The notes below the pieces were generated by a model, which saw only the letters and a program-made list of their open reading frames with translations, ran no database searches and was not told the DNA's origin. From Streptomyces justiciae (GTDB taxonomy: Bacteria; Actinomycetota; Actinomycetes; Streptomycetales; Streptomycetaceae): a stretch of DNA of 64,000 nt. This document shows, piece by piece, positions 884 to 25,062 of this stretch. Made by a program: the position numbers and the translations under genes. The stretch covers positions 1 through 64,000 of the forward strand of contig NZ_JADDXU010000035.1 in NCBI RefSeq assembly GCF_015163075.1. Direction: 5' to 3'. The first letter of the stretch is position 1. Every line of letters starts with the position of its first letter.

Positions 884-1083
884 GTGCTGGCCCCAGGTGT
901 TTCCGTCCGGCGCCCGGTGCGTGTGATCCCTGACCGCCGACGGCGGCGCTCAGCATCTTGATTCCGGCAGGGGCAGGGCCGATATGATGCTCCTGCCCCT
1001 GAGAACCATTACTCGCGTGCTTGGGCTTCGCGGCCGGCCGCTCGTCCCATCCCCGACTGCGGTTCCAACTGCTCGCTCGGTGC

Positions 1084-1440: not shown

Positions 1441-1772
1441 CAAGACACCGAGCCCGGAGAGCTGATCCCCAACACGGGCGACATCCTGCGCAGCGCCATT
1501 ACGTCGAGGGCCACGGCCCCGCTCCGGGGCACCTGCCGCCGCCAAAGGTGGATGCAGGCTGGTGTGGGGCACTACCGCGCCCGCACAGCCCAACCGGTAG
1601 TGCCTCCCTTGAGTGGCTGGCAACGTATCCCCCTCGGACCATCGCCTTCGCCCTACGTGTTGGGATCCAGTGCAACTCGATTTCAATATAGGCACCCTAT
1701 GATGAAATACGTGTCGGTCTCGCTCCGGCACACCTACTTGCCCTCACCCACGACGTTGGGACTGTGACACAC
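1441..1772. other. Stretch without a recognisable gene
   Basis: About 330 bases between the SDR remnant and the MFS stub. No reading frame here resembles a known protein. The last 90 bases are AT-richer than the rest and probably contain the promoter of the MFS stub at 1773. No strong inverted repeat was seen. Confidence 0.5.
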
Positions 1773-2055
1773 ATGTCTTCCCCTGCCACGGCGGCCGCCG
1801 CCCCCGGTTCGGCACCGGCTGCCGGCCCCGTGCCGCACCGCTGGTTGATCCTCACCTTCATCAGCGTGGCACAGCTGATGGTGGTCCTCGATGCCACCAT
1901 CGTGAACATCGCGCTTCCCACCGCCCAGGCGGACCTGCACTTCTCCAACGCCGACCGCCAGTGGGTGATCACCGCCTATGCGCTGGCTTTCGGCTCGCTG
2001 CTTCTACTGGGTGGCCGACTTGCGGACCTGTGCGGCCGGAGGAACGCCTTCCTTG
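1773..2055 (+). pseudogene. MFS drug transporter, N-terminal stub
   Basis: The first ~94 residues of a DHA2-type major facilitator transporter. A short Ala/Pro-rich cytoplasmic start is followed by TM1 with the family motif LMVVLDATIVNIALPTA, then the QWVITAYAL segment and the motif-A loop GGRLADLCGRRNAFL. Homology then stops abruptly. An intact member would continue for about 400 more residues and 12-13 more TM helices. The reading frame runs on into unrelated residues and stops at 2135, so the product cannot be a working transporter. Start ATG 1773; an in-frame GTG lies at 1764. Confidence 0.8.
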
Positions 2056-2379
2056 GTCCCGATCGAGATGAAGAAGGAGAAACCGGGCTATGTCCTCAAC
2101 TCGCTCCTTGTACCGCTGCTCAAAGCCGCCGGTGAATTGCTGGCGGACGACATCGCGGACCCGGCCGCGGTCGACGATGTGTGGCGTATCGGGACGGGAG
2201 CCGCATACGGGCCCTTCGAAATGCTCGACATCATCGGCCTTATGACCGCTCACCACATCGCCTCGCACGGTGACGCGAAGCAACGCGAGTTCGCCAGGCT
2301 CATCAAGGAACGCTACCTGGACAAAGGCCAGACTGGCGTCGAAAGCGGGCAAGGTTTCTACACGTATCCCCCGACGTAG
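2056..2379 (+). pseudogene. 3-hydroxyacyl-CoA dehydrogenase, C-terminal fragment
   Basis: About 107 residues of the C-terminal dimerisation domain of a 3-hydroxybutyryl/3-hydroxyacyl-CoA dehydrogenase: VPIEMKKEKPGYVLNSLLVP, then a GTGAAYGPFEMLDIIGL-like segment and the usual end SGQGFYTYPPT. The NAD-binding half is absent. It begins within a few bases of the MFS stub's last recognisable residue, in a different frame, so the two are joined by a deletion or recombination scar. It has no start codon of its own at the junction and is not expected to be made as an enzyme. Confidence 0.82.
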
Positions 2380-2421
2380 CCACGGGCATGAGTGCCCCGT
2401 GCCGACGGTGATCGGTCTGCT

Positions 2422-2454
2422 GAAGGCCCCGCGGTGCTTCACAGCGGGGCCTTC
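2422..2454. terminator. Bidirectional hairpin terminator
   Basis: A perfect 11-bp stem (GAAGGCCCCGC at 2422-2432, GCGGGGCCTTC at 2444-2454) with an 11-base loop, lying between the dehydrogenase fragment and the 3' end of the oppositely oriented FAD monooxygenase. It lacks a long U tract, as is usual in Streptomyces. Confidence 0.75.
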
Positions 2455-2465
2455 TCGACCGAAGA

Positions 2466-4052: not shown

Positions 4053-4112
4053 CACACTGCACCGTTCCGTTGAGAGGCAAATGCGCGCACATATGCATGA
4101 CCTTGTGACATA

Positions 4113-4126
4113 CATGTGTACACGTG
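4113..4126. promoter_or_regulatory. Candidate operator in divergent promoter region
   Basis: CATGTGTACACGTG is a 14-bp near-palindrome (one mismatched pair, core GTGTACAC). It lies 61 bases upstream of the monooxygenase start and 93 bases upstream of the hydrolase start, so it could control both. No regulator gene is adjacent. Confidence 0.4.
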
Positions 4127-4181
4127 GTTCGCTCTCAGTCGCGTGTGGAGGCATGCTGTTGTCAGGCACGCCCAACAATTC

Positions 4182-4210
4182 TTGACGACATCTGACGCAT
4201 CAGCGATACA
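4182..4210 (+). promoter_or_regulatory. Candidate sigma-70-like promoter giving a leaderless transcript
   Basis: TTGACG at 4182-4187 and GATACA at 4205-4210 are 17 bases apart. Transcription would start about 7-9 bases further on, at or next to the ATG at 4219. No Shine-Dalgarno sequence precedes that ATG, which agrees with a leaderless mRNA. Confidence 0.45.
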
Positions 4211-4218
4211 GGGTAGAT

Positions 4219-4998
4219 ATGACACAAATAGATACACGCGTGTTCGGTGATCTGGCCGGTGATCTTTACGGGGCCCCCGACGACGTACGACCGCCTCTGC
4301 TCCTTCTGCACGGTCTGACGTTCGACCGGCGGCACTGGGGCCCTTTCCTCGCCGAGTTGCCCGCGGGACGCCGGGTGCTGGCCGTCGACCTGCCCGGCCA
4401 CGGCGGCTCGCCCGCGAGCACCTCCTACGCCCCGGACACCGTGGCCGCGGCGGTGCACCGGGCCGTCACCGCCGCGCGCCTTGACTCACCCGTAGTGGTC
4501 GGGCACTCGGTCGGCGGCCTGCTGGCCACCGTCTACGCCGCCGGACACCCGGTGCGCGGCGTCGTCAACGTCGACCAGCCGCTGCTGCCCGGACCGTTCG
4601 GCGAACTGCTGCGCCAGAACGAAGAACTGCTCCGCGGCCCTGACTATCTGCGCCTGTGGGAGCGTCTGACCGCCGGCATGGGGATCGACAGCCTGCCACC
4701 CGCGGCTCGGGACCTGGTGCGCACCGTCACCACGCCCCGGCAGGACCTGTTCCTCGGCTACTGGCACGATCTGCTGTCCAAGTCGGCGGACGAGATCCGC
4801 GCGCGTCGCGAACGGGACCTGACCGCCCTGCGCGAACAGGGCGTCTCCTACCGGCATGTGAGCGCGAGCGAGCTGCCCGAGCCGTATCGGGCATGGCTCC
4901 ACTCCTGCCTGCCGGACGCCGTCTTCAGCGTCGTCCCGGCCGCCAGTCACTTTCCGCATCTCTCGCACCCCCGAGAGCTGGCGGACCTCGTGGCATAG
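4219..4998 (+). CDS. alpha/beta hydrolase
   Basis: A 259-aa alpha/beta-hydrolase. It has LLLLHGLTFDRRHW (oxyanion region), the LPGHGGSP loop, the nucleophile elbow VVGHSVGGLLA and a C-terminal His in ASHFPHLSHP. Similar enzymes hydrolyse C-C bonds, lactones or esters. It is divergent from the FAD hydroxylase with 166 bp between the starts, so a hydroxylation-then-hydrolysis pair is plausible but not proven. The ATG is likely used without a leader, because a promoter-like -10 lies only 9 bases upstream and no ribosome-binding site is present. Confidence 0.88.
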   Translation: MTQIDTRVFGDLAGDLYGAPDDVRPPLLLLHGLTFDRRHWGPFLAELPAGRRVLAVDLPGHGGSPASTSYAPDTVAAAVHRAVTAARLDSPVVVGHSVGGLLATVYAAGHPVRGVVNVDQPLLPGPFGELLRQNEELLRGPDYLRLWERLTAGMGIDSLPPAARDLVRTVTTPRQDLFLGYWHDLLSKSADEIRARRERDLTALREQGVSYRHVSASELPEPYRAWLHSCLPDAVFSVVPAASHFPHLSHPRELADLVA

Positions 4999-10916: not shown

Positions 10917-11105
10917 TCCATCCTCAGCCCGGCTCCCGGTCTCCCGGCATCTCAGCACGGGTTCCGGGCGTCGACGGGGGTGGATCAGCCGACGCGGTCC
11001 GGGGCTGCTTTCGGTGCGGGTCGTGAGATGGACAGGACAACCTTGTGGGCGAGTCGTGAGTCTTCTCAGCGATCACGTTGTGATCGGAGCCACGAGGAGA
11101 ACATC

Positions 11106-12182
11106 ATCAACGCCATTCGTAAGACCCTGACCGCCACCGCCGTCGTCGGTGCCGTCCTCGCGGGTTCCGCCGCCTGTGGAACGGTGGAGCAGCTGTCCGC
11201 CGGCAGGAAGCTCGAGCAGGCCTTCGAGGAGCTCGGCAAGGAGAAGACGCTCTCCTTCGAGGTCGACCTGGACACCGATGCCGCGTCCCTGAAGGCGCTG
11301 GACGCGTCGTCCGACCCTGAGCCCGGTGAGGAGATCCCGGACGAGGTCGCCGAGTTGCTCAGCGGCGCGAAGATCACGGTGACCGTGCAGTCGAAGAAGC
11401 CGCTCGAGAAGTCCGGTGAGAAGGATCTTGTCGGTACGGCGATGAAGCTCAGTACCCCGGACGGCGACCTTTTCGAGTACCGGGTGATCGGCGACTACAC
11501 CTACCTCCGTGCCGACATGGACGCCATGGGCAAGACCATGGGCAGCCCCCTACCGGACCCTGACGACCTGCCCCCGGAGGCCGGGGCGATGAAGGACGTT
11601 CTCCAGGGCAAGTGGGTGAAGTTCAACACCGAGGAGATGAACAAGGCCGCCGCCGAGGAGCAGGACACGGAGGGTGGTGCCGCGCCGTCCCTCGACGCCC
11701 AGACGCAGAAGAAGCTTGTGAAGGCCCTGCGCAAGGTCGTCGCCCGGGAGGTGGAGTTCAAGACCACCGGGGGCGAGGACGGCACTGAGCACGTCACCGC
11801 CACGGCCCCCTTCCGCACGCTGGTCACCGAGTTGCTCGGCGAGATCCGTCCCGTGGTGAAGGACCTGCCGCCGGGCATGGAGCTGCCGACCGCCAAGGAC
11901 ATGAAGGACGCCCCCGACGCCAAGGTGACCGCGGACTTCACCCTCAAGAACGGCGAGCTGTCCCAGGTGCACATCGACCTCGCCAAGCTCGCCGAGAACG
12001 CCAAGGTGAAGAAGCTCGGCCTCACCCTGCGGATGCGCGAGGGCACCCTGCCCGGTGCTCCGGCCGGTGCCACGACGCTCGACCTTCCCGAGCTCATGAA
12101 CGGCTTCCTCGGCGGGCCCGCGATGAGCGACGCCGAGATCGACACGACCGGTCTCGACACCATCCCGCAGGACGCGTACTGA
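11106..12182 (+). CDS. Putative secreted lipoprotein with possible ATC start
   Basis: About 358 residues: a signal peptide NAIRKTLTATAVVGAVLAGSAAC with a lipobox-like end (SAAC), then a hydrophilic domain rich in Lys, Asp and Glu resembling LppX/LprG-like beta-rich actinobacterial lipoproteins. It is probably anchored on the outer face of the membrane. The ribosome-binding site GAGGAG (11094-11099) is ideally placed for a start at 11106, but that codon is ATC, not ATG. The nearest conventional in-frame starts are ATG 11028 and TTG 11043, which would add 26 or 21 hydrophilic residues before the signal peptide. Function unknown. Confidence 0.78.
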   Translation: MNAIRKTLTATAVVGAVLAGSAACGTVEQLSAGRKLEQAFEELGKEKTLSFEVDLDTDAASLKALDASSDPEPGEEIPDEVAELLSGAKITVTVQSKKPLEKSGEKDLVGTAMKLSTPDGDLFEYRVIGDYTYLRADMDAMGKTMGSPLPDPDDLPPEAGAMKDVLQGKWVKFNTEEMNKAAAEEQDTEGGAAPSLDAQTQKKLVKALRKVVAREVEFKTTGGEDGTEHVTATAPFRTLVTELLGEIRPVVKDLPPGMELPTAKDMKDAPDAKVTADFTLKNGELSQVHIDLAKLAENAKVKKLGLTLRMREGTLPGAPAGATTLDLPELMNGFLGGPAMSDAEIDTTGLDTIPQDAY

Positions 12183-12197
12183 TCACATCGAGCGCGG

Positions 12198-12681
12198 GTG
12201 ACCGCCTCGACAGCCGAGGACGTCGCCCGGTACGCGGTGACCGCGAAGGAAAGCACCTACAGGCTGAACCTTGGATTCCTCCCGTGACCACGCGCTCACA
12301 CCGGTCAGCACCCGTGTCAGGCCGGTGTGGACCTTCCGCTCCGCCGAGACGCCGCAGGGCGCGTGGTCCGCGCTGCCGCTGTCCGTCGTCCGCTTCACGC
12401 CCCGTCTGACGCCGGCCAGCACCGCCACGGCGGGCCAGAGGTTCGCCGTGCCCTTCCACATCGAGGGCGCAGCCGCGGGACAGCGGATCAGGAAGCTCGC
12501 CTTCGCCGTCTCGTACGACAACGGGAGCACCTGGCAGTCCGCCGAGGCCGTCGGCGGTACGCATCTGTCCCTGCGGCGCCCGGCCGGGGCGGGGTCGGTC
12601 TCCTTGCGGGCCGAGCTGACCGACGCCCAGGGCAACACGCTGGTCCAGGCGATCGAACGCGCCTCCCTCACCACCTCGTGA
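12198..12681 (+). pseudogene. C-terminal remnant of a large secreted protease-type protein
   Basis: The first frame (12198-12287) gives AEDVARYAVTAKESTYRLNLG and then stops. The next frame continues the same domain (DHALTPVSTRVRPVWTFRSA through YDNGSTWQSAEAV to LTDAQGNTLVQAIE) to a stop at 12679-12681. The same domain order appears in the intact lipoprotein at 22920-23531 (TVWRYSSA, FDGGSTWRPA, ATDSQGNTVTQ), which follows a subtilase. This piece is therefore probably the tail of a deleted subtilase, with one frameshift near 12280. No start or catalytic part remains. Confidence 0.6.
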
Positions 12682-12920
12682 GCCGTAGCGTTTCAAAGGT
12701 GACTAGCCGTGGGAACACCTGTCCGCATCTCACATGCCTCAGGTCCGGGGCGTCGGTGCCGAGCAGGTGTGCGCCTCGTATCCTGAATTCGTGATGTCGG
12801 GATCTGGACATGTGTGCGCGGGGGCGGTCGCGTACGGTGCGGGGGGCGGGCGTTGACGCGGGGTACAACGGTTTGCAGCACTTGTCCTTCGGTACCGCGG
12901 CTCTTGGAGACAGCAACTCG

Positions 12921-15704
12921 ATGAACGACCTGGCCCTGTCCCCGGGTCCCGCTTCCAGGCAGCTGATCGGGCGGGACGAGGATCTGGAGTTCGTACGATC
13001 CCACTTCGGCGGCCCCGGCCACGGCGCGGCCCTGTTGCTGTCGGGCGAGGCGGGCATCGGGAAGACCGCGATCCTCGACGCCGTGGCGGCGCAGGCCACG
13101 CTGAGCGGCGCGCGCGTGCTGCGGGTGAGCGGTGTGCAGTTCGAGACGGACATCAGCTACGCCGGCCTCAACCAGCTGCTCGTCCCCCTGTTCGAATCAT
13201 TCGACCTGCTGGACCCGGGCCACCGGGACGCCCTCAAAGTCGCGGTCGGTATCGGCGGCGGGCCGCCTCCCAACCGGCTGCTGACCGCCACCGCGGCCTT
13301 GCTGCTGCTGCGCAGGACCGCCCAAGCGGCCCCGCTCCTGATCGTCGTCGACGACCTGCCGTGGCTGGACCGGCCCACCACCTTCGTCCTCGGCTTCATC
13401 GCGCGGCGGCTCGTCGGCAGCCGTATCAGCTTCCTGGCCGCCTCACGCGTCACCACCGAGGGCTTCTTCGAGGCGAGCGGCCTCACCGAGCACCGCCTCC
13501 GGCCCCTTGACGACGCGGCGTCCGCCGAGCTCCTCGCCCGGGCGCACCCGGGCCTGTCCCATGAGATACGGCGGCGTATCGCCGCGGAGGCGCACGGCAA
13601 CCCGCTCGCGTTGATGGAGTTGCCCACCGCCCTCGACCGTGAGCAGCGCACGGCGCCGGGGGCGGTGCCCTCGGTCCTGCCGCTCAGTGAACGACTTCAG
13701 GCGCTGTTCGCCGCGCGCGTGGCCGACCTGCCCGACCGCGACCGTGAGCTGTTGTTGATCGCGGCGCTCGAAGGCACCGGTGACCTCACGGTCATCGAGG
13801 CGGCCGCCGGCGGCCGCGACGCCGTCGACGTTCTGGAGTCGGCGGAACGCGACCGGCTGGTGACCGTCTCGGCGGCCTCCCGGAGGATGTCCTTCCGCCA
13901 CCCCTTGATCGGTTCCGCGGTGGTGGCGCAGGCCACGGCCGCCGGCCGCCGCAAGGCACACCGAGCGCTCGCCGACGTCCTCGTCGGCCAGCCCGAGCGC
14001 CGCGCCGGCCATCTCGGTGAGGCGACGACCGGCCGGGACGAGGACGTCGCCGCACTGCTGGAGCAGGCTGCCCGTCTACGCCTCGGACGAGGTGACGCGC
14101 TGGGTGCGGTGGCGGCCCTCACCCGTGCCGCGGGGCTCAGCCCGTCGCCGGCCGACGAGAGCCGCCGGCTGGCGGAGGCCGCCTACATCGGCACCGACGC
14201 CGGGGGCGACCTGGCGGACGCCTCGCGGCTGCTCGTCGGTGCGCGCCGCGCCGACCCCGCCGTCCGGGAGGGGTCCCTGCACGCGGCGGCCGCCTCCGCG
14301 CTCCTGCTGATCAACAAGGACGGGGACGTCAACACCGCCCACCGGCTGCTGGTCGGCGCGATCGAAGCGGGCGGACACGGCTACGACGCCTCGGACGAGG
14401 CTCTCGTCGAAGCCCTGTTCACCCTGATCACGCTGTGCTGGTACAGCGGTGATCCGGAAAAGTGGGCGCCGTTGTTCCGGGCCCTGAACCGGATGACGCC
14501 CGCACCCCCCGACCTGCTGTGGGCGTGCGCCCAGACCTTCGCCGACCCCGCCCGCACCGGCTACCGCGGCTTGCGGGTCCTCGACGAGCAGCTCGCCGAC
14601 CTCGGCGACGCGACGCACGTGGTGCGGGTCAGCACTTGCGCCGTCTACCCGGACCGGCTGGCGGACGTGAGAGAGGCGTCCCTGCGTCTGGTCGAGCAGG
14701 CCCGCGCGGGTGCCGCGCCCGTCCGCCGACACCTCTCGGCACTGATCCACCTGGGCCTGGACGACTACTACAAGGGCCGCTGGGACGAGGCCGTGCGCCT
14801 GACCGGCGAAGGGCTCGAGCTGTGCAAGCAGTACGGCTACCCGTTCTTCGCCTGCAAGTTCCAGTTCGTGCAGGCGCTGGTGGCCGGCGCACGCGGTGAC
14901 GTGGAAGCCTGCGAGGCGCTGTGCGAGGAGATCACCGCCTGGGCCGTTCCCCGTGGCGCCCATGGCGCCCGCGCACTGGCCTTCCACGCGCGGAGCCTGG
15001 CCTCGCTCGGCAGTGGGGACTTCGAGACCGCCTACCGCCAGGCCACCGCCGTCAGCCCGCTCACCCCCCTCGCCCCGTACCTGCCCCATGCCATGGCCGG
15101 CGCCCTGGACCTGGTGGAGGCCGCGGTCAAGTCAGGACGGTCGACCGAGGCCGCCACCCACGCGGCGGCCCTGCGGGAGTCCGAGATGGCGCGGCTCTCC
15201 CCGCGCCTGCACGTGCTCGTGCTGGCCTGCGAGGCACTGACGACGCCGGACGAGCACGCCCTGCCCCTGTTCCAGCGGGCCTTGTCCCTGCTCGACCCCG
15301 ACGAATGGCCCTTTGACGTCGCACGGGTACGTCTCCTCCACGGCGAACGCCTCCGGCGTCGGCGGGCGACCAAGGAAGCGCGGGAGCAACTGGTCCTCGC
15401 GCGCGCTGTGTTCGAGAAGCTGGGGGCGGCACCCTGGGTGGTGCGCGCCAAGGCCGAACTGCGCGCGAGCGGTGTCACGGCGTCGGCCGGCGCGGCAGGC
15501 AAGGGAGTGCTGACGGCCCAGGAGCTCGAGATCGCGACGCTGGCCGCGACCGGGCTGACCAACAAGCAGATCGCGGAGCGTCTCTTCCTGTCACATCGCA
15601 CGATCGGCGCGCACCTGTATCAGATCTACCCCAAGCTTCACATCAGCTCCCGGGCCGCCTTGCGGGACGCCCTCGTCGCCCTCGACCTGGAAGAGGTCGA
15701 CTGA
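12921..15704 (+). CDS. LAL-family transcriptional regulator (large ATP-binding LuxR) 1
   Basis: A 927-aa MalT/LAL-type regulator. The N-terminal AAA/STAND ATPase has Walker A GEAGIGKT at residues 42-49 and Walker B LLIVVDDLPWLD near 150. A long helical TPR-like middle (~400-840) follows, then a C-terminal LuxR HTH (LTAQELEIATLAATGLTNKQIAERLFLSHRTIGAHLYQI). Such proteins bind an inducer and activate nearby operons. ATG 12921 fits homology onset, with GGAG 12 bases upstream; longer in-frame starts lack support. It is followed in the same direction by a second LAL gene, then the peptide-subtilase-lipoprotein group, which is its most likely local target. Confidence 0.92.
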   Translation: MNDLALSPGPASRQLIGRDEDLEFVRSHFGGPGHGAALLLSGEAGIGKTAILDAVAAQATLSGARVLRVSGVQFETDISYAGLNQLLVPLFESFDLLDPGHRDALKVAVGIGGGPPPNRLLTATAALLLLRRTAQAAPLLIVVDDLPWLDRPTTFVLGFIARRLVGSRISFLAASRVTTEGFFEASGLTEHRLRPLDDAASAELLARAHPGLSHEIRRRIAAEAHGNPLALMELPTALDREQRTAPGAVPSVLPLSERLQALFAARVADLPDRDRELLLIAALEGTGDLTVIEAAAGGRDAVDVLESAERDRLVTVSAASRRMSFRHPLIGSAVVAQATAAGRRKAHRALADVLVGQPERRAGHLGEATTGRDEDVAALLEQAARLRLGRGDALGAVAALTRAAGLSPSPADESRRLAEAAYIGTDAGGDLADASRLLVGARRADPAVREGSLHAAAASALLLINKDGDVNTAHRLLVGAIEAGGHGYDASDEALVEALFTLITLCWYSGDPEKWAPLFRALNRMTPAPPDLLWACAQTFADPARTGYRGLRVLDEQLADLGDATHVVRVSTCAVYPDRLADVREASLRLVEQARAGAAPVRRHLSALIHLGLDDYYKGRWDEAVRLTGEGLELCKQYGYPFFACKFQFVQALVAGARGDVEACEALCEEITAWAVPRGAHGARALAFHARSLASLGSGDFETAYRQATAVSPLTPLAPYLPHAMAGALDLVEAAVKSGRSTEAATHAAALRESEMARLSPRLHVLVLACEALTTPDEHALPLFQRALSLLDPDEWPFDVARVRLLHGERLRRRRATKEAREQLVLARAVFEKLGAAPWVVRAKAELRASGVTASAGAAGKGVLTAQELEIATLAATGLTNKQIAERLFLSHRTIGAHLYQIYPKLHISSRAALRDALVALDLEEVD

Positions 15705-15959
15705 GGCCGCCTGCCTCCGCAGTTGGGCGACAGCTAAACACGTATGCGGTGACGGCTCGCACAGGGGCCGCTGCCCCGAAGCCGGCCGTGCACCGCGCCG
15801 GATCCGGAAGTGTCGCGCAACGTTGTCCGGCGTCACACCGATGTCGTCACATGTGGTTTACAGTCTTGCAGCCGTCCCCAGGTATCGCGCCCGTGCACGT
15901 CGCGGCGCCGCCCCGAGAGGCCGGCGGGTGTGAGGGCAGTGGGCAAGGGGGATGTGGCG

Positions 15960-18896
15960 GTGGTGGAAGGAACCCTGCACAACGGCTGTCGGCTTCCGGC
16001 GCTGTCCGCGCCGCGCTTCGTCGGCCGGGACGGCGAGCTGGACGCACTCGGGTCAGCGCTCGACGGGGAGCCTGCCGTCGTCCTGATCGAGGGCGAGGCG
16101 GGCATCGGCAAGACCCGGTTGCTGCGTGAGTTCCTCGCGTCCGAGGCGCGGCGGGGGCGGCACGCCCTCGTGGGTGCCTGCCTGGAGCTGCGGGTGCCAT
16201 ACACGCTCGGCGCGGTGGTCGACGCGGTGCGCGAGGGCAGTGACGACATCGCGCGGTTGGAGCTGAGCGGGCTCGCGGGGGCGCTCAGGCCGCTGTTTCC
16301 CGAGTGGGCCGACGCACTGCCCGCGGCGCCGGAGCCGTTGGAGGACGCCACCGCCGCCCGGCACCGGCTGTTCCGGGCGTTCGTCGAGGTCCTTGACCGG
16401 CTCGACGTCGCGATCCTCGCCCTGGAGGACGTCCACTGGGCCGACGAGGCCACGCTCGAGTTCCTGCTGTTCCTGGTCTCGCGCCGGCCGCAACCCGTCG
16501 ATGTGGTTTTGACCTACCGGCGCGACGAAGTGCCCCCGTCGTCCCTGTTGCTGCGGCTGCCTTCGCGGCTGTCCCCCGATTCCCGTCCGGTCCGGCTGAC
16601 GCCGCGCCCGCTGGATGTCGAGCAGACGGCCTCGTTCGTCTCCTCGATGCTGGCCGGTGGGCACGTGTCGACCGAGTTCGCGGCCTTTGTGCACGCGCGC
16701 ACCGAGGGGGTGCCCCTGGCCGTGGAGGAGTCGGTGCGGCTGATGCACGACCGGGCGGATCTGATACGCCGGGACGGCGGTTGGGCACGCCGTCGGCTGG
16801 ACCGCATCGAGGTACCGCCGACCATCCGTGACGCCATGCTGGAGCGCGTCCAGCGGCTCGGCCCGGACACCCGTACCGTGCTGCACGCGGCGGCGGTGCT
16901 CTCCGGCCCGGCCGATCCCGCGACGCTGCTCGCGGTCACCGGTCTGTCTCCCGAGCGGTTCGCGGCGCAGTCGGTCGACGCGCTCGGCAGTGGCCTGCTG
17001 CGTGAGGAGAGCAGGTCCGGGCAGTGGTCGTTCCGGCACCCGCTGGCGAGCTATGCCGTGTACGACGCCATTCCGGCCGTGGACCGGCGTGCCCTGCATC
17101 TGCGGGCGGGCCGGGCGCTGGAGCGGTGGCCGGTGCCGCCCGTGGCGCAGTTGGCGCGGCACTTCCGGCTGGCGGGCGAGGTCGAGGCCGCCTGCCGGTA
17201 CACCGAGGAAGCGGCCGATCTGAGCACCCAGTCCGGGGACGTGGCCACCGCGGCGCTGCTGATCCACAGTCTGGTCGTCACCGTCGCTCTGCCCGCCGAG
17301 GTGTTGGTGCGTCTGGTGACGAAGATTCAGTTCCAGGCGTTGTCCGGCTCCGATCCGTATTCGGCGGTCGTCGAGGCGCTGCGTTCCGCTCTTGCCGGGC
17401 AGGGCCTCACGCCGGCGGCGGGGGCGTCGGTCCGTTTCCAGATCGGCCGGGTTCTGATGGGGGCGGGTGAGATCGAGGCGGGCCGCGAGGAGATCCTCGC
17501 CGCGATACCCCATCTGCCGCCGGGGTCGGCGGAGATGGCGCGTGCCCGCATCCTGCTGTCTCTGCCTCTGGGGAACGCCCGGCCGGTCGCGGAGCATCTG
17601 CGGTGGCTTCAGCAGGCGCCGCCGCTCGCGGGGTCGATGGCTTCCCTGGACCGGCTGCATCTGGCCGCGGATCGCGCTTTCGCGCTGCTGACGCTGGGTG
17701 AGGAGGCCGGGTGGGAGGCGGCGCGCGAGATCCCGGACGACGTCGTCGATCCGCGTGCGGCGTCCATCGTCACCGTGGGACATTCGAACGTCGGCGAAGA
17801 GGCGACGCGTTGGGGGCGGTACGCGGAGGCCAGGGCGCGGCTCGCCAAGGCCCAGGCGCTCGCCGAGCGCCATCAGCTGCTGCACTACCTGGACAGCATC
17901 GCCTCCTCACGGGCCCACCTGGACTGGTTCACCGGCGCCTGGTCGGGGCTGGCCGAGCGGACGGCGCGGCTCATCGACGACGACGGCGGGGTCCGGCTGA
18001 AGGATCGGTGTGAGGCGGCGCTGGTGGCGGGCCTGTTGCAGGCCGCAAAGGGAGATCGGGAGGCGGCCGGAAAGAGGCTGCGGTTCGCCGCCCGCGACGA
18101 CCAGCAGCGTATCGAGGCCACCGCCGCGCTGGCTCAACTGTGCCTGGACGACGGTGACATCGAGGAGGCGGTCCGACTGACCGATCGGCTCGCCCAGGTC
18201 GCCGTCGGCGGCGGATTGTGGTCACGTGCCGTGGAGTTCGCTCCCGTGCGCACCGCCGCCCTGGTCGCGGCCGGGCGGCTCGGCCCCGCCGCGGACGTGG
18301 TGGACGCCCTGCAAGGGGCCGTGGGCGAGCGGGACGCACCGGCTCCCCAGGCGTCCTTGGTCCTGTGCCGAGCGATGCTGGCGGAGGCCGACGGCCGGCC
18401 GGCGGACGCCGCCGCGCTGTATCAGCGTGCGGCCGCCGCGTGGGAGGCGCTGCCACGTCCCTACGACGCCTTGCTCGCCCGGGAGCGCTCCGCGCTGTGC
18501 CTGCTCGCCACCGGACAGGACGAGGAGGCGCTGCCGATGCTGTCGCAGGTCGCTCAGACGCTGTCGGAGCTCGGCGCCCGCAAGGACGTTGCCCGGATCG
18601 GCCGCTTCCTGGCCGGGCGGGGAGGGAACGCTCTCGCGGTGGCACGCGGCCGAGGGCGCCCCGGGTACGGTAATCAGCTTTCGCCGCGCGAGCTGGAGGT
18701 GGCGCAGCTGCTGGTTGAGGGGCTGACCAACCGTCAGATCGCGGACGCGCTGACGGTGTCGGCGCAGACCGTTGCCAGCCAAGTGCGATCGGCGATGCGC
18801 AAGTTGGACGTGACCTCGCGTACGGCACTTGCCGTCAGGGTCGTCGAGTCGGGTCTCGTCGGGGACCTGGACCGGCGGGCGCTGAAGGGCGAGTGA
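15960..18896 (+). CDS. LAL-family transcriptional regulator 2
   Basis: A 978-aa LAL regulator. It has FVGRDGELDAL, Walker A GEAGIGKT (45-52), Walker B VAILALEDVHWADEATLEFL, a TPR-like middle and a C-terminal HTH LSPRELEVAQLLVEGLTNRQIADALTVSAQTVASQV. The start is taken as GTG 15960, 8-9 bases after AAGGGGG; GTG 15954 is an alternative. It is separated from LAL 1 by 255 bp, so each may have its own promoter. The HTH differs from those of the other LAL proteins here (SAQTVASQV against SHRTIGAHL), so it should read a different site. Confidence 0.9.
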   Translation: MVEGTLHNGCRLPALSAPRFVGRDGELDALGSALDGEPAVVLIEGEAGIGKTRLLREFLASEARRGRHALVGACLELRVPYTLGAVVDAVREGSDDIARLELSGLAGALRPLFPEWADALPAAPEPLEDATAARHRLFRAFVEVLDRLDVAILALEDVHWADEATLEFLLFLVSRRPQPVDVVLTYRRDEVPPSSLLLRLPSRLSPDSRPVRLTPRPLDVEQTASFVSSMLAGGHVSTEFAAFVHARTEGVPLAVEESVRLMHDRADLIRRDGGWARRRLDRIEVPPTIRDAMLERVQRLGPDTRTVLHAAAVLSGPADPATLLAVTGLSPERFAAQSVDALGSGLLREESRSGQWSFRHPLASYAVYDAIPAVDRRALHLRAGRALERWPVPPVAQLARHFRLAGEVEAACRYTEEAADLSTQSGDVATAALLIHSLVVTVALPAEVLVRLVTKIQFQALSGSDPYSAVVEALRSALAGQGLTPAAGASVRFQIGRVLMGAGEIEAGREEILAAIPHLPPGSAEMARARILLSLPLGNARPVAEHLRWLQQAPPLAGSMASLDRLHLAADRAFALLTLGEEAGWEAAREIPDDVVDPRAASIVTVGHSNVGEEATRWGRYAEARARLAKAQALAERHQLLHYLDSIASSRAHLDWFTGAWSGLAERTARLIDDDGGVRLKDRCEAALVAGLLQAAKGDREAAGKRLRFAARDDQQRIEATAALAQLCLDDGDIEEAVRLTDRLAQVAVGGGLWSRAVEFAPVRTAALVAAGRLGPAADVVDALQGAVGERDAPAPQASLVLCRAMLAEADGRPADAAALYQRAAAAWEALPRPYDALLARERSALCLLATGQDEEALPMLSQVAQTLSELGARKDVARIGRFLAGRGGNALAVARGRGRPGYGNQLSPRELEVAQLLVEGLTNRQIADALTVSAQTVASQVRSAMRKLDVTSRTALAVRVVESGLVGDLDRRALKGE

Positions 18897-19005
18897 ATTC
18901 CGCCCGCCTCAGGAACGACGAAAAAAGGTCGAGGACCGAACGGGACGATTAAATCCCGCATCTGATCGATCGTGCCGCCCGCGGGTGTGATCGCACACTC
19001 TTGCC

Positions 19006-19173
19006 ATGCCATCCGCTCCATCACCGGCGCCGGACCCGCAGGACGACCGGTCCGCGTCGGACGTCCGTTCCCAGGACTTACCCGCGCCGGCCGGCGAGTC
19101 GCCCGACCCTCAGGACATCGCCGACATCCGCGAGGTCAGCGCCGACGAGGACGCCGAGTACGAACCGCTCTGA
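19006..19173 (+). CDS. Small acidic peptide with a TTA codon
   Basis: A 55-aa peptide beginning MPSAPSPAPDPQDD and ending EVSADEDAEYEPL, strongly acidic, without Cys or a signal peptide, and containing two PDPQD repeats. Codon 25 (19078-19080) is TTA, which in Streptomyces requires the bldA tRNA and marks developmentally or stress-controlled genes. It lies 51 bp upstream of a secreted subtilase in the same orientation, so it is probably co-transcribed. It could be a peptide substrate, a signal or a translational gate for the operon. No family was recognised and no strong ribosome-binding site is visible. Confidence 0.5.
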   Translation: MPSAPSPAPDPQDDRSASDVRSQDLPAPAGESPDPQDIADIREVSADEDAEYEPL

Positions 19174-19224
19174 CGTACAGGCCTGTTCACGTTCCACGTC
19201 AATGCTCTCAAGGGAGACTCATCG

Positions 19225-22200
19225 ATGAGGTCAAACGCAAGAAGGGGCATCAGCAGACGCTGGGGCGCGGTGACCGTCGGCCTGACCGTCCTCGGCATGC
19301 TCGTGCCGACGACGACGGCCGTCGCCACCGAGCCGCCGCGGCAGACACCGTCGTCCGATGCCGCGATAGCCGACGGCCCGAGCGCGGCCGACGACGAGCT
19401 GACGCGGTTCGTCGCCGCGGCAGGCGGGTCCGTGCCGGTCACCCTGGTCACCGGCGACACCCTGCGTGTCGGCGTCGACGACCACGGCACGCCGGTCGTC
19501 CGCGCGACCGACAGCGCGCCCCGGGCCGACGGCCTGCCGGTCGTGTTCCACACCCTCACCCGCCAGGGCAACGTGTACGTCGTGCCCGACGACGCCCTCG
19601 TCCTGGTCAGCCAGGGGCTGCTCGACTGGTCGCTTTTCGACCTGCGGGAGTTGGTGAGGCTCGCCGCGGCGGGCAGGTCCGGCAGCGTGCCGGTGCTCGT
19701 CACCTACACGGGCAGCACCGAGGCCGCCAAGAAACGCAAGGTCGACGGGGCGTCCGGCGGGCGGGCGCTGCCGAGCATCAACGGCCGCTCACTTAAGATC
19801 GCCGAGGGCGGTCGGTGGTGGCAGGGGGTGCGGGGCAAGAAGGCGGCCACACCGGCGCCCGCCCGTTCCGCCGGTTCCCTCGCCGGGGTGAAGAGGGTGT
19901 GGCTCAACGGCCTGTCCCACGTCGACCTCGAGCGGTCGGTGCCCCAGATCGGTGCGCCGGTCGCCTGGGAGCGCGGCTACGACGGCACCGGTGTGACCGT
20001 GGCGGTGCTGGACACCGGTATCGACGCCACCCACCCGGATGTGTCCGCGGCCGTCGTCGGCAAGGCCGACTTCACGGGTACGTCCGCGGAGGCGAGGGAC
20101 GGGCACGGGCACGGCACACATGTGGCCTCCACGGTCCTGGGCAGCGGCGCCGCGTCGAAGGGACTGCGCAAGGGGGTCGCACCCGGCGCCAAGTTGCTGG
20201 TGGGCAAGGTCTGCACCGACAACGGCGAGTGTCCCGACGACGCGATCATCGCGGGCATGGACTGGGCCGCCCACTCGGGCGCCAAGGTCGTCAACCTGAG
20301 CCTGGGCGGTGAGCCCACCGACGGCACCGACCCGACGAGCCAGGCGCTCAATGAACTCAGCCGCACCACGGGCACCCTGTTCGTGGTGGCCGCCGGCAAC
20401 CACAGCTTCGGCACCCAGAAGGTCACCTCCCCCGGGTCCGCCGACGAGGCGCTGACCGTGGCCGCTGTCGACAGCAACGACGAGATGGCCCTGTTCTCCA
20501 ACACCGGGCCGCGTTTCGGGGACGGCGCCGCCAAACCCGACATCTCGGGGCCGGGGGTCGACATCGTCGCGGCTCGCGCCGCGGGCACGACCATGGGTAC
20601 GCCGGTGGACCAGTACTACACCTCGTCCAGCGGCACCTCGATGGCCACACCTCATGTGGTGGGAGCCGCGGCCATCGTCGCCCAGCAGCACCCGGACATG
20701 AACGCCCAGCAGATCAAGGCACTGCTGATGGACACCGCCACCGACCTGGGGCACGACTTGTACGCCCAGGGCACGGGCCTGGTGAACCTGGAGACCGCCA
20801 CCAATCCGAAGGTGCTGCCGAAGGGCACCCTCAACTTCGGACGCCAGCCCTATCCGCAGTCGGCGCAGACCAAGAAGATCGTGTACACCAACCGCACCGA
20901 CCAGGCGGTCACGTTGCACCTGTCGCTGACGGCGACCTCCGGCGACGGCAAGCCGGCCAAGGCAGGGCTGTTCGCCCTCGGCACGGACCAGGTGGTCATC
21001 CCCGCGGGCGGTACCGCGGACGTACCGGTGACGGTCGACGGCAGCGTGCTCGAGGCCGACGACCCGCACGGGAGCTACACCGCGCTCATGACCGCCCATG
21101 ACGACTCGGGCGGGATCCGACTGAACTCCCGGATCCACGCCTTCATCGAGGCCCAGCGATTCCCGCTCACTTTGAAGATCATCGCTCCGGAGGGCGCGAC
21201 CGACGTCCGCTACGGCACGGTCGACTTCACGCCGGTCGACGACCAGGTGTACCTCCACTCGGGCCCGACCTACCTGCCCGGCTCGGACACCACGACCGCA
21301 CAGCTCTTCCGCGGCACCTACGCCGCGGACGTGGCGGTGAGCTGGCGCGACCAGGCCGGCGACCTTCAGCAGGCGGCCCCGATCGCGGCGCAGGTGAGTC
21401 TCACCAGGGCCACCACGGTCACGCTGGACCTGCGCAAGGCCAAGCCGCTGACCGTGCGGTACCCGGAGGCCACCGAGACGTACAGCATGACGGACGCCGT
21501 CAGCCGGGTGTCGCAGACCGGGGCGTGGTCGACCGGCACGTCGATCGCCTTCGACTACCGGGCCACCGAGCCGAACTGGTGGGTGCTGCCCACCGGCAAG
21601 GTGACCAAGGGCACCCTCACACACGACCTCTACCAGTCCGGTACGACGCCCGTGATCACCCTGCGCGCCACCGGCGGCGGCGCACCGGCCCGCCTCTTTG
21701 CCCGCTACGTGACCCCGGACACCGCGTTGTCCCAGACGCAGATGTGGCTCCGGGACACCGGTGACGGCGCCACACAGCAGGCCTCGATCAAGGTTCCCCG
21801 GCTCCCGGTGAAGGGGGAACTGCCGGTCGTCTACGCCGGTTCCGGGTCCGCCGCGGAACTCGCGGGCGTCGACGTACGGGGCAAGCTCGTCCTGCTGACG
21901 CCGACCGACATCTGCCAGGGCACCTGCGACTACACCAAGCTCCAGGGCGAGCGGGTGAGCGCGGCCGCTTCCGCGGGCGCGGTCGGTGTGCTCGTCGCGG
22001 CACCCGGCCTCACCTCGCTGGGCCGCTCCTCCGAGGCCGACCTGTGCCCCGACGGGCCGAAGAGCTGCCCGGCGATCCAGCCGTACGCGGCGCTGCCCGT
22101 CGTGAGCCTGCCGTATGCCCAGGCCCAGGCGCTGGTCGAGCGGATCAAGGCGCACGGCTCGAAGGTCCGCATCGGACTCGGCGGCACCAGCGTGCCGCGG

Positions 22201-22887
22201 GTGTACGCCGCCGCGTTCCATGAGGTCGGACAGTCCGGCGCGACCACCTTCCGGCTCGGGACGCAGGACCTCGACCGAGTCGACCTCGCCTTCCACTCGG
22301 CCCGCCCCGGAGACGTGCACCAACTGAGCTGGAACCAGATCGCGGCGGGCGTCCCGGCCTCCTCGCAGGTGAACCTGACTCACCCCGCCACACAGCGGAC
22401 GATGACCGTCTTCGTCAACCGGGCAAGGAACGCCATCAACCGGTTCACGGCCTCCTGGGCGGAGACCGGAGCGGGTCACCTCATCACCCACAACCGCACC
22501 GAGATCAACGACCTGGTCCTGACCGGCCGGGACGAGATCCACTGGAACGCGGGGCCGTCCGTGCCCGGCGCCATAGCGACGGTACGCACCGAGTCCGGCT
22601 TCTCCGTCCGGCAAGGGCCGTGCGCGGGCTGCCGACAGGGCGACAGCTTCTATCCCACCGTCTACCTGACGAGTGCCGCCGGCGGTCGCCAGGCCCTGAT
22701 CGGCATCCTCAACGACGAGACCATCACGCACGAGTTCATCGAACTGCCCTCCTGCAGCACCACTCCGTCGCCCACCATCCCGAACCTCGACTCCGTCTGC
22801 GACTTCCGGCTCAAGGACGCCTCCGGCAAGGAAATGGAGCGTCAGACGGTGCATCTGCCCGATCAGAACCTGGACCTGATCTTCTGA
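19225..22887 (+). CDS. Secreted S8 (subtilisin-family) serine peptidase with PA domain
   Basis: A 1220-aa extracellular protease. The signal peptide is residues 1-35 (RRWGAVTVGLTVLGMLV). A propeptide-like N-domain contains VTLVTGDTLRVGVDD. The catalytic domain is at about 240-530 with D263 (VAVLDTGIDATHPD), H296 (GHGTHVAS), oxyanion N392 (VAAGN) and S472 (SGTSMATP). A PA-type insert follows much later (~862-965, GKLVLLTP onwards) within a beta-rich C-terminal region. ATG 19225 follows AGGGAGA. It probably forms an operon with the acidic peptide upstream and the lipoprotein 32 bp downstream. Confidence 0.95.
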   Translation: MRSNARRGISRRWGAVTVGLTVLGMLVPTTTAVATEPPRQTPSSDAAIADGPSAADDELTRFVAAAGGSVPVTLVTGDTLRVGVDDHGTPVVRATDSAPRADGLPVVFHTLTRQGNVYVVPDDALVLVSQGLLDWSLFDLRELVRLAAAGRSGSVPVLVTYTGSTEAAKKRKVDGASGGRALPSINGRSLKIAEGGRWWQGVRGKKAATPAPARSAGSLAGVKRVWLNGLSHVDLERSVPQIGAPVAWERGYDGTGVTVAVLDTGIDATHPDVSAAVVGKADFTGTSAEARDGHGHGTHVASTVLGSGAASKGLRKGVAPGAKLLVGKVCTDNGECPDDAIIAGMDWAAHSGAKVVNLSLGGEPTDGTDPTSQALNELSRTTGTLFVVAAGNHSFGTQKVTSPGSADEALTVAAVDSNDEMALFSNTGPRFGDGAAKPDISGPGVDIVAARAAGTTMGTPVDQYYTSSSGTSMATPHVVGAAAIVAQQHPDMNAQQIKALLMDTATDLGHDLYAQGTGLVNLETATNPKVLPKGTLNFGRQPYPQSAQTKKIVYTNRTDQAVTLHLSLTATSGDGKPAKAGLFALGTDQVVIPAGGTADVPVTVDGSVLEADDPHGSYTALMTAHDDSGGIRLNSRIHAFIEAQRFPLTLKIIAPEGATDVRYGTVDFTPVDDQVYLHSGPTYLPGSDTTTAQLFRGTYAADVAVSWRDQAGDLQQAAPIAAQVSLTRATTVTLDLRKAKPLTVRYPEATETYSMTDAVSRVSQTGAWSTGTSIAFDYRATEPNWWVLPTGKVTKGTLTHDLYQSGTTPVITLRATGGGAPARLFARYVTPDTALSQTQMWLRDTGDGATQQASIKVPRLPVKGELPVVYAGSGSAAELAGVDVRGKLVLLTPTDICQGTCDYTKLQGERVSAAASAGAVGVLVAAPGLTSLGRSSEADLCPDGPKSCPAIQPYAALPVVSLPYAQAQALVERIKAHGSKVRIGLGGTSVPRVYAAAFHEVGQSGATTFRLGTQDLDRVDLAFHSARPGDVHQLSWNQIAAGVPASSQVNLTHPATQRTMTVFVNRARNAINRFTASWAETGAGHLITHNRTEINDLVLTGRDEIHWNAGPSVPGAIATVRTESGFSVRQGPCAGCRQGDSFYPTVYLTSAAGGRQALIGILNDETITHEFIELPSCSTTPSPTIPNLDSVCDFRLKDASGKEMERQTVHLPDQNLDLIF

Positions 22888-22919
22888 TGGCACTCGGCAC
22901 CGACAAGGAGACCACCACC

Positions 22920-23531
22920 ATGAAGTGCATCCGCGTGCCATCGCCGCGCCGCCGCAGAAGTGCCCTCGTGCTGCTCGCGGCAGCGGCCACCCTGCTGCTC
23001 TCCGGCTGCAAGGGCGGGGACCTCGTGTCGTACGAACTTCCCGAGAAGTCGGCCCCGTACACGTTCGAGACGGAGACCAACGGCGTCAAGACGGTGTGGC
23101 GGTACAGCTCCGCCAAGGCGACCAAGGACGACACCTCGACCCTGAGCCCGTGCATCGGCGAACTGGTCGGCAGCGACCAGGCGGCCTGCCGCCCCGAACC
23201 GCTGATCTTCCTGCGCTACGACTTCGGCCTGGCCCTGGACAACACGGTCAGGGCCGGGGAGGCCCACGAGGTCACCGTCGTCGGCTACTACCAGGAACGG
23301 CTGTCCGACCTCCCCGAGGTCACCTCCCTGAAAGCGGAGACCACGTTCGACGGGGGCAGCACCTGGCGTCCGGCCCCCAGCAAGGCGACCGGTGAGAACA
23401 CCTTCACCACGACCATCAGGAATCCGCGGCGGGACCAGGCCCCCGCGGGCGTCGGACTGAGGATCCGCGCAACGGACAGCCAGGGCAACACGGTCACGCA
23501 GACAATCCCCGTGGCGTACACGCTGCGCTGA
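22920..23531 (+). CDS. Lipoprotein homologous to subtilase C-terminal domains
   Basis: A 203-aa lipoprotein: Arg-rich signal peptide, hydrophobic core ALVLLAAAATLLL and lipobox LSGC with C30 as the modified residue. The mature domain (TVWRYSSAKA ... LIFLRYDFGLAL ... TTFDGGSTWRPA ... IRATDSQGNTVTQTI) is beta-sandwich-like. It is clearly related to the protease-tail remnant at 12198-12681. It follows the subtilase by 32 bp and is read in the same direction, so it looks like the protease's C-terminal domain split off as a separate membrane-anchored partner, perhaps to tether or inhibit the protease. Confidence 0.85.
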   Translation: MKCIRVPSPRRRRSALVLLAAAATLLLSGCKGGDLVSYELPEKSAPYTFETETNGVKTVWRYSSAKATKDDTSTLSPCIGELVGSDQAACRPEPLIFLRYDFGLALDNTVRAGEAHEVTVVGYYQERLSDLPEVTSLKAETTFDGGSTWRPAPSKATGENTFTTTIRNPRRDQAPAGVGLRIRATDSQGNTVTQTIPVAYTLR

Positions 23532-23830: not shown

Positions 23831-24202
23831 TCAGGGGGCCGGAACAGGCGCCGGGTCGATGCGGATCGTCGCGGCCCGGGCCTGCGGGCTCGCCACCAGG
23901 GCGTCGGCGACCGCGCCGTACTTGTCGCGGAAGGCGGCGTCGAGCCCGGTGGGCGGCTCGAGGCCGCCGGTCGTGAGCAGCACGTCGCGGCTGACGTCGC
24001 CCACCTGGACCGTTCCGTAGCCGTGTTCGCGTGCCGCCCGGTACCAGCGGGAGCGGACGCCGCGGTAGGCGCGGACGTACAGTTCGCCGTCGACGACGGC
24101 CATGCCGATCTCCACGCCGGGGCCGTCGGTGTCGCCTGCGGTCAGGACGAGGGAGTAGGTCTCGGAGAACAGGGACTGCTCTTCGGGTGTCCAGGAGGTC
24201 AT
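23831..24202 (-). CDS. DUF2255 family protein
   Basis: A 123-aa soluble protein (MTSWTPEEQSLFSETYSL start; VEIGMAVVDGELYVRAYRG; WYRAAREHGYGTVQVGD) of the DUF2255 type. This small beta-barrel fold resembles flavin-reductase/PPOX split barrels. Its ATG overlaps the stop of the upstream MmyB-type regulator by 4 bp (ATGA), so both are co-translated. In actinomycetes this regulator-DUF2255 pair commonly sits beside a divergent oxidoreductase or hydrolase. No substrate is known. Confidence 0.82.
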   Translation of the reverse strand: MTSWTPEEQSLFSETYSLVLTAGDTDGPGVEIGMAVVDGELYVRAYRGVRSRWYRAAREHGYGTVQVGDVSRDVLLTTGGLEPPTGLDAAFRDKYGAVADALVASPQARAATIRIDPAPVPAP

Positions 24203-25062
24203 CGGTTCACCTCGGTGTCGGCTGCCTCCGCCGTCCAGAAGCGGAGGATGCGCAGGGCGTCGTGGGAGGGGCTGCCGGGCTCGGCGGTCAGGACCACCAG
24301 GCGCTGGCCGGAGCCGTCGGACGCGGCCCAGGTGTCGCAGTCGAGGGTGAGGTCGCCGACCAGCGGGTGGCGGTAGCGCTTGATGCCGTAGGTGGCGCTG
24401 TTGACGCGGTGCTCGGCCCACCAGGTGCGGAAATCCGCGTCCTGGACGGACAGTTCACCGACCAGCCGGGCGAGCTCCGGGTCACCGGGGTCGGCCGCGG
24501 CCTCCAGGCGCAGGGCGGCCACGGCGTCGCGGGCGGTGTGCTCCCAGCCCCGGTCCATCGCCCGCATCGCCGGGTCGGTGAACAGCAGGCGCAGGTAGTT
24601 GCGCCGGCCGGCCGGTACGGCTGCGAAGTCGGTGTAGAGGGACGCTGCGGCCTCGTTCCAGGCCAGGATGTCGAGGCGTTTGCCGAGGACCAGGGCCGGG
24701 GTGTGGGTGAGTTGGTCCAGCAGGCGGCGCAGGGCGGGGCGCAGGCGTTGGGGTGCCCGGCGGCGGCGTGGTCGGTCGTCGGTGCGGCCGGCGAGCTCAT
24801 AGAGGTAGCTCTGCTGGTCGTCGTCGAGGCGCAGGGCGCGGGCGAGGGCGGCGAGCACGGGGGTGGAGGCGCGGACCCGGCCCTGTTCGAGGCGGGTGTA
24901 GTAGTCCACGCTGATCGCGGCGAGGGCGGCGACCTCCTCACGGCGCAGTCCGGTGACCCGGCGGGCGGAGTCCGTCGCCGGCAGGTCGCACTCCTGCGGG
25001 TCGAGCTGCGCCCGCCGGGCCCGTAGAAAGGCGCCGAGATGGGGGGCGGGTGTCGGTTTCAT
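24199..25062 (-). CDS. XRE-family regulator with MmyB-like ligand-binding domain
   Basis: A 287-aa regulator. The N-terminal XRE HTH (~residues 10-80) contains GLRREEVAALAAISVDYYTRLEQGR. The rest is the MmyB-like PAS-type ligand domain, with its marker phrases DILAWNEAAASLYTDF, RNYLRLLFTDPAMRAMDRGWEHTA and YGIKRYRHPLVGDLTLDCD. The family binds fatty-acid-like ligands and represses a divergent gene. The ATG at 25062 faces the hydrolase across 176 bp that hold a 30-bp inverted repeat, its likely operator. DUF2255 follows with a 4-bp overlap. Confidence 0.92.
   Translation of the reverse strand: MKPTPAPHLGAFLRARRAQLDPQECDLPATDSARRVTGLRREEVAALAAISVDYYTRLEQGRVRASTPVLAALARALRLDDDQQSYLYELAGRTDDRPRRRRAPQRLRPALRRLLDQLTHTPALVLGKRLDILAWNEAAASLYTDFAAVPAGRRNYLRLLFTDPAMRAMDRGWEHTARDAVAALRLEAAADPGDPELARLVGELSVQDADFRTWWAEHRVNSATYGIKRYRHPLVGDLTLDCDTWAASDGSGQRLVVLTAEPGSPSHDALRILRFWTAEAADTEVNR

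Follow-up and report, generated by a model that had tools for sequence, protein, structure and literature searches.

The locus

A 64,000-nucleotide (nt) stretch of Streptomyces justiciae DNA, referred to here as the window (NCBI RefSeq assembly GCF_015163075.1, contig NZ_JADDXU010000035.1, positions 1 to 64,000, forward strand), contains a short open reading frame (ORF) for an acidic peptide of 55 amino acids (aa), lying between the gene for a large LAL-type regulator, LAL2, and the gene for a secreted subtilase. Judged from comparative sequence analysis, this ORF is a genuine gene, and its product probably belongs with the regulator rather than with the protease. The features concerned are as follows:

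15810..18896, + strand: LAL2, a STAND-type NTPase with a TPR-like superhelix and a LuxR-type helix-turn-helix (HTH) (Pfam AAA_16 and GerE, structural model, fold match, orthologues beside the peptide)
18949..18972, + strand: putative LAL2 operator TTAAATCCCGCATCTGATCGATCG (single match in the genome, matches upstream of homologous loci)
18994..18999, + strand: -10-like hexamer CACACT, set 6 nt ahead of the start codon of the peptide gene (conserved spacing)
19006..19173, + strand: gene for the acidic 55-aa peptide (homologues, tail profile, codon-level constraint)
19210..19217, + strand: Shine-Dalgarno-like AAGGGAGA of the subtilase gene (read from the sequence)
19225..22887, + strand: secreted subtilase with S8 and PA domains, the output gene (Pfam PF00082, PF02225)
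22920..23531, + strand: lipoprotein resembling the C-terminal tail of large S8 proteins (adjoins the subtilase; tail likeness in locus L205)

The peptide, MPSAPSPAPDPQDDRSASDVRSQDLPAPAGESPDPQDIADIREVSADEDAEYEPL, contains the word PDPQD twice, has no cysteine, and ends in EYEPL (tail codons 19156-19170). It lacks any hydrophobic stretch (maximum 11-residue Kyte-Doolittle mean, -0.23), and its gene includes a single TTA codon, at position 19078, that is specific to one clade. The subtilase gene, coding for 1220 aa, starts 51 bp past the peptide ORF, and the gene for the 203-aa lipoprotein follows after a gap of 32 bp. The original prediction had described this arrangement, with the coordinates of the peptide gene and the lack of a signal sequence, and on all of these points the sequence bears it out. 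Pfam (E <= 0.01) and NCBIfam (E <= 0.1) return nothing for either the peptide or the lipoprotein.

A short gene with a conserved end

A frame so short, rich in proline, alanine, aspartate and glutamate and set in high-GC DNA where other open frames are common at the same place, invites the suspicion that it is open by chance and encodes nothing. The distribution of its relatives indicates otherwise. (Genomes and loci are cited by our own G and L numbers.) The N-terminus of the subtilase matches nine places in six of 392 Streptomyces genomes (E <= 1e-30), and six of the nine, the window's own included, have an intact peptide homologue upstream. The original prediction had named the absence of such a frame before orthologous subtilases as grounds for abandoning the peptide; the outcome favours a gene instead. 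Two identical copies in G301 retain the start of the peptide and have lost its tail, and at the G098 subtilase no peptide frame was seen upstream. L022 and L024 (G301:C1:182678 and 9085942), subtilase copies with identical match scores and identical upstream DNA, from both of which the peptide tail has been lost, sit near opposite ends of the contig and are possibly terminal repeats.

The six Streptomyces peptides, found without recourse to any tail pattern, have in common M1, one proline, one aspartate and the tail Y-x-P-L. When a profile made from them was run against the 392 genomes, 92 had a match at E <= 0.1; the true copies, which were the six places in five genomes that we accepted, scored E <= 1.2e-13, and the next match 6e-4. 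Searching with the single peptide is less discriminating: 11 of the 392 genomes matched at E <= 0.01, only G370 besides the window's own was shown to be homologous, and true copies in G061, G237 and G301 were overlooked. The remaining matches, including a 38-aa frame in G227, were dismissed as low-complexity, judging by the length and position of the frames. The number of candidates scored per genome was six for the subtilase, 17 for the single peptide, 16 for the profile, two for LAL2 and three for a second LAL; copy counts are thus lower bounds.

Further homologues came from three other searches. An alignment of the lipoprotein, run against a collection of 84,980 species, brought in 31 named loci, of which 20 have a close LAL2 relative (44-86% identity), and all 20 have the peptide. 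These, two of which run into a contig edge, belong to Streptomyces, Actinacidiphila, Micromonospora, a further Micromonosporaceae strain, Allorhizocola, Nonomuraea and Jiangella. Among the other named loci, three are cut at a contig edge and two have no visible subtilase. LAL2 was searched for in 374 genomes of the class (27 with a match at E <= 1e-110) and a second LAL in 216 (18 with a match), and the flanks of the matches were then scanned for the peptide. Several genomes appear under two numbers (G237 as L066 and L080, G370 as L068, G061 as L071, L141 as L091, L145 as L090, L155 as L089), and both the LAL tree and the peptide table described below take one member of each pair. One locus-by-locus examination took in seven of ten loci, leaving out L168-L170.

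The 57 peptides compiled in this way are 27-76 aa long, with start codons picked by us, and have a net acidity of 4 to 21. The fourth residue from the end is Tyr in 34, Trp in 20, His in two and Phe in one; the third from the end is mostly Glu (45); the second from the end is Pro in all 57; and the last is Leu in 48, Val in seven, Ile in one and Ala in one. Since the proline and the aromatic residue belonged to the search pattern for many of the 57, these frequencies are partly by construction. In this set, the constant part of the family is the tail aromatic-x-Pro-Leu/Val/Ile/Ala-COOH, carried on a variable, acidic, proline-rich stretch.

How specific this description is can be gauged by scanning 682,740 bases from 45 peptide loci, on both strands, for ORFs that end in [YWFH]xP[LVI] and have a net acidity of at least 4. 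The scan recovered 37 of the 45 known peptides where expected, the other eight being missed through the length or start filter, and found two matches elsewhere, which turned out to be the second peptides of double loci. When 24 rows scored as negative were re-scanned without the start-codon filter, L205 and L138/L174 (one locus under two numbers) proved positive; a frame in L149 is basic and ends in YAPC, and was excluded from the count. Codon by codon, too, the end appears to be constrained: among 16 pairs of relatives, not all of them independent, the pooled proportions of synonymous and non-synonymous differences are 0.22 and 0.14, and in the last six codons 11 differences are synonymous and four non-synonymous. 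Because homologues with the same tail occupy the same place in other genomes, the ORF must be more than chance. With its position conserved, the scan so specific, and frame and tail kept over Streptomyces, Actinacidiphila, Micromonospora, Allorhizocola, Nonomuraea and Jiangella, the idea of a chance frame can hardly be right.

The literature that we searched, mostly without subscription papers or preprints, contains no description of a LAL-peptide pair or of a layout like this one, as the original prediction had supposed. The family is apparently undescribed, and we propose for it the label LAL-associated aromatic-x-Pro-Leu-COOH peptide.

The peptide follows the regulator

LAL2 has everything expected of a LAL/STAND regulator, namely a STAND NTPase, a TPR-like sensor and a LuxR HTH, and it is an ordinary one. 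Pfam matches to TPR_12, TPR_19 and TPR_7 all fall under the Pfam cut-offs; the AlphaFold model (mean pLDDT, a per-residue confidence score, of 87) shows the NTPase part, a long TPR-like superhelix and the LuxR-type HTH, and its top fold match in the PDB is 6mfv, a STAND protein with a TPR sensor. The longest ORF codes for 1028 aa and relatives align over 970 aa; the true start probably lies some 35-60 codons downstream of the longest-ORF start, where homologues begin to align. A TTA codon at 15858 sits in the N-terminal stretch with which most homologues do not align and, the start being later, is probably non-coding.

A tree of 74 LALs places all 54 peptide-linked ones inside one group of 63 rows (SH-aLRT 91, by a quick method), and the 11 LALs outside it are all without peptide. 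The peptide label changes six times on this tree; after shuffling the mean is 17.8, and none of 500 shufflings gave a value as low. G301 was scored as positive there although its intact peptide sits at another locus than its LAL, and rows L086 and L190 are identical. Peptide and LAL genes are directly adjacent in the 45 loci except in G301, with L076 and L138 as further exceptions.

What stands behind the peptide within the 63-row group is usually the subtilase, yet it changes. In L129 it is a GH3 glucosidase (PF00933, PF01915), and in L140, by sequence likeness, another; in L139, L209 and L215 it is, judging from a reading of the sequences, a LacI regulator with a sugar ABC transporter. The GH3 and LacI cases all lie within family f19 (Jiangellaceae). 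In L204 and L206 this position is taken by a secreted protein that has Kelch and CarboxypepD_reg domains. Conversely, four named loci that have the subtilase and lipoprotein and no LAL2 relative in the fetched stretch all lack the peptide, as do two where only a distant LAL (34-35%) stands beside the subtilase. A search of the whole G098 genome turned up the subtilase, and neither the peptide nor a LAL exceeding 35%. Because the peptides group on the LAL tree, and because the peptide is retained where the output gene changes, it appears to belong with the LAL. We have therefore given up the subtilase as its main partner: the peptide stays with the LAL beside GH3 or LacI/ABC genes, and it is missing from all six of the named loci that have a subtilase and no close LAL2 relative in the fetched stretch. 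With this goes the earlier suggestion that it is chiefly a protease substrate or partner.

The same substitutions bear on two other readings. The peptide could be a precursor of the ribosomally synthesized and post-translationally modified kind, or a substrate or chaperone of the secreted enzyme, as a short, acidic, leader-like ORF with a conserved end beside a protease gene might suggest. Against that, the peptide stays while the enzyme changes; no modification enzyme common to the loci was recognized among the ORFs around eight Streptomyces loci, inspected by eye from their first residues; and 24 peptides gave no NCBIfam match at E <= 1 and just two single, chance-level Pfam matches (E 0.59 and 0.65). 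We consider it highly improbable. Alternatively, the peptide or its C-terminal end might exit the cell, be trimmed outside, re-enter and be read by the LAL, in the manner of PapR, PlcR and NprB. Genes for a regulator, a peptide and a secreted protease lie side by side here, the constraint is at the C-terminus, the sensor is TPR-like, and the PlcR-controlled protease NprB is reported to aid PapR maturation (PMC4701985; papers are cited by PubMed Central number throughout). Export by a PptAB-like route, for peptides that have no signal, is conceivable. None of 45 family peptides has a signal-like hydrophobic stretch, however, by the hydropathy criterion alone (best 11-residue mean, 1.02), and the peptide is retained where the protease gives way to a sugar uptake operon or to a GH3 enzyme that lacks any evident signal sequence. 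We think export unlikely.

Plasmids offer a further, not fully independent, sample. The tail peptide is at the expected place in five of eight records with LAL2 relatives (L201, L204, L205, L206 and L207); the first scan gave four, and L205 was added without the start-codon filter. L201 all but duplicates L068, L207 sits near L159 on the tree, and L202 and L203 come from one species.

Some individual loci are worth recording. The S. anthocyanicus linear plasmids L202 and L203 carry an isolated LAL2 orthologue (71.5%), behind which neither a peptide nor a protease is found; the genes that come next are one on the opposite strand and an MMPL transporter. For L205 (NZ_CP016083.1), PLSDB, whose gene table is known to have gaps, gives no coding sequence (CDS) at the peptide ORF after the LAL. 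L061 (G301:C1:8287001-8295000) has an intact LAL2 orthologue (72%) beside a decayed peptide, with the end EYATL, and lipoprotein remnants; the intact peptide-subtilase unit of G301, without a LAL, is elsewhere. In the Jiangella loci L144 and L148, two divergent LAL-peptide modules stand back to back, and L148 has a shorter second peptide-like frame, with the end EHWEPL, behind the first peptide.

Promoter and candidate operators

Upstream of the peptide gene lies TTAAATCCCGCATCTGATCGATCG. With a tolerance of three mismatches, the window's 10.45-Mb genome has it at this one site, and five other genomes have five more matches between them, these coming from three of the five and all lying upstream of homologous loci; the reversed pattern, as a control, gave none. 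The G061 and G098 genomes have no match within three mismatches. Closer to the gene, each of the 18 loci compared that are of the Streptomyces, Micromonospora and Allorhizocola type has CA[CG]ACT 6-8 nt ahead of its start codon, the second of two in-frame ATGs being used for L070, and because this -10-like hexamer is so near, the peptide mRNA is probably leaderless. Jiangella loci have a different operator, GGTGATNNNCCNANTCGC, upstream of the peptide, and in seven of them a second copy stands before the subtilase.

These arrangements bear on the possibility that the ORF is a leader peptide, whose translation, perhaps stalling at the ...YxPL-stop, controls the next gene while the product itself has no function. 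The ORF is the first in the presumed transcript, and its constraint abuts the stop codon, as in arrest peptides. But a separate operator copy precedes the subtilase in the seven Jiangella loci, and the Jiangella peptide is therefore a target of the presumed regulator in its own right, beyond being a leader on the protease message. In L209, moreover, a gene on the opposite strand cuts the intact peptide off from the next operon; the gap between peptide and subtilase ranges from 51 to 334 nt among six Streptomyces loci; and Rfam finds no element at 18800-19400. We judge the leader reading improbable.

Nor is the TTA codon the design of the switch, as had been suggested in the form of bldA dependence. 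Only three of 45 peptide genes have one (G000, which is the window, L062 and L063); L062 and L063 are the loci whose module is most similar to the window's, and the TTA is not conserved in orthologues. We have dropped the TTA/bldA switch as a general design.

Protease, lipoprotein and neighbouring genes

The subtilase contains the words DTG, HGTH and GTSMA, at 263, 296 and 470, which we take to mark the catalytic triad. Identity to it is 49-88% in close loci and 34-38% in Nonomuraea and Jiangella, and orthologous genes are preceded by similar AGGAGA or AGGGAGA sites. The lipoprotein adjoins the subtilase at all nine subtilase places in the six genomes. Many long open frames contain stretches that match it, and in L205 a CDS annotated as an S8 peptidase (583-4491) holds an S8 match together with a match to the lipoprotein at the C-terminal end. 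The likeness to a protease tail that had been proposed for it is thereby confirmed.

The original prediction had placed two LAL regulators before the peptide. Both genes do precede it, and only LAL2 belongs to the unit: LAL1 (12810-15704, with AAA_16 and GerE domains), upstream of LAL2, is not conserved with the locus, a full-length close match standing beside the module in one of seven other loci (52%, in opposite orientation), and we have set it aside. Before LAL1, on the forward strand, a 155-aa frame (12327-12794) has a weak match to the tail lipoprotein (E 2.8e-4), and a 400-aa frame (10980-12182) precedes it; neither has a Pfam match at E <= 0.001. On the reverse strand, at 24199-25062, is an MmyB-like regulator with a ligand-binding domain (PF17765), unrelated to the peptide.

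Proposed mechanism

We suggest that the peptide is a small, disordered, acidic, cytosolic partner that modulates its LAL activator through its C-terminal tail, an interpretation of the sequences to which we give an even chance. Among the earlier guesses, that of an intracellular signal comes closest to it. LAL2 would bind TTAAATCCCGCATCTGATCGATCG and turn on the peptide together with the enzyme behind it, here the subtilase, and the tail lipoprotein. The peptide would in turn bind its LAL, the carboxylate tail most likely occupying the TPR sensor, and so set the activity of the activator, the variable acidic part acting as a soluble spacer. A disordered peptide with only its free C-terminus constrained, and tied to a TPR regulator, fits the part of a ligand for such a sensor. 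The sign of the effect is conjecture. Feedback restraint seems somewhat more likely than co-activation, because the peptide would be the first product of the promoter that is switched on, and because MalY, the partner of MalT, inhibits.

Several observations weigh against this picture. Nine LAL rows (eight different sequences) within the 63-row group have no peptide, nor do three of the eight plasmid records (L202, L203 and L208). In G301 the peptide accompanies the subtilase, away from its LAL, and in L076 some 2 kb of other DNA comes between the LAL and the peptide, which stays with the subtilase. TTAAATCCCGCATCTGATCGATCG is absent, within three mismatches, from the peptide loci G061 and the second of G237. 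No clear site in the LAL was lost along with the peptide when 236 columns conserved in peptide-bearing LALs were compared with six LALs from three loss lineages, a weak test; the best columns, S279, T1005 and A638, are changed in five of the six and also in part of the outgroup. Finally, in an AlphaFold model of a read-through LAL-peptide fusion the LAL part is well predicted and the tail is not docked, the whole peptide having a pLDDT below 50 and its last block 28; this test, too, is weak, with the peptide present in just six of 19 rows.

There are precedents for the individual parts of the scheme. MalT of Escherichia coli has a LuxR-type HTH, and its inhibitory partners, which include Aes and MalK, are folded enzymes or transporter subunits. 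LAL2 is likewise a STAND NTPase with a TPR sensor, and in MalT, too, a cytosolic partner restrains the activator; here, in contrast, the candidate partner is a disordered peptide of 27-76 aa with a conserved free C-terminus. MalT is restrained by the partner protein MalY (PMC10427625), and in STAND activators such as MalT internal contacts hold the off state and can be strengthened by partner proteins (PMC10427625, PMC6468293).

The RRNPP systems (PlcR-PapR, Rgg-SHP and ComR-ComS) resemble the present one in having a small peptide gene beside a TPR-containing regulator, and in PlcR-PapR a protease, NprB, takes part as well (PMC4701985). They differ in that LAL2 has about 970 aa, rather than 250-500, with NTPase and LuxR domains, that the peptide has no Sec-type sequence, and that the host is an actinobacterium rather than a member of the Firmicutes. 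Of the five features listed for RRNPP systems (PMC10075063), three are found here, namely a propeptide of 10-100 aa, a TPR receptor and adjacency; Sec secretion, judged in 45 peptides by hydropathy only, and a receptor of 250-500 aa are not. We do not class the pair as RRNPP, though it may work alike. The TPR carboxylate clamp of HOP and CHIP, which reads the EEVD C-terminus of Hsp70 and Hsp90, provides a physical model of a TPR domain reading an acidic C-terminal tail; no clamp residues were recognized in LAL2, and the likeness is one of analogy alone.

Significance

Streptomycetes possess many large LAL-type regulators, for most of which no inducer is known, and the conserved peptide partner provides a concrete candidate ligand for one LAL clade. 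It is possible, though we hold this more tentatively, that the clade primarily reads not a nutrient but a dedicated, encoded peptide, by way of its free aromatic-x-Pro-Leu tail, and that regulator and peptide, the latter made from an ORF controlled by the operator of that regulator and leaderless in the Streptomyces type, form a portable module set before different outputs. If so, those outputs would include a subtilase, a secreted Kelch protein, a GH3 glucosidase and sugar uptake. Quorum sensing in Actinobacteria has been termed under-explored (PMC4748050). Should the peptide indeed bind its LAL, it would amount to peptide-level control of a STAND activator in this phylum.

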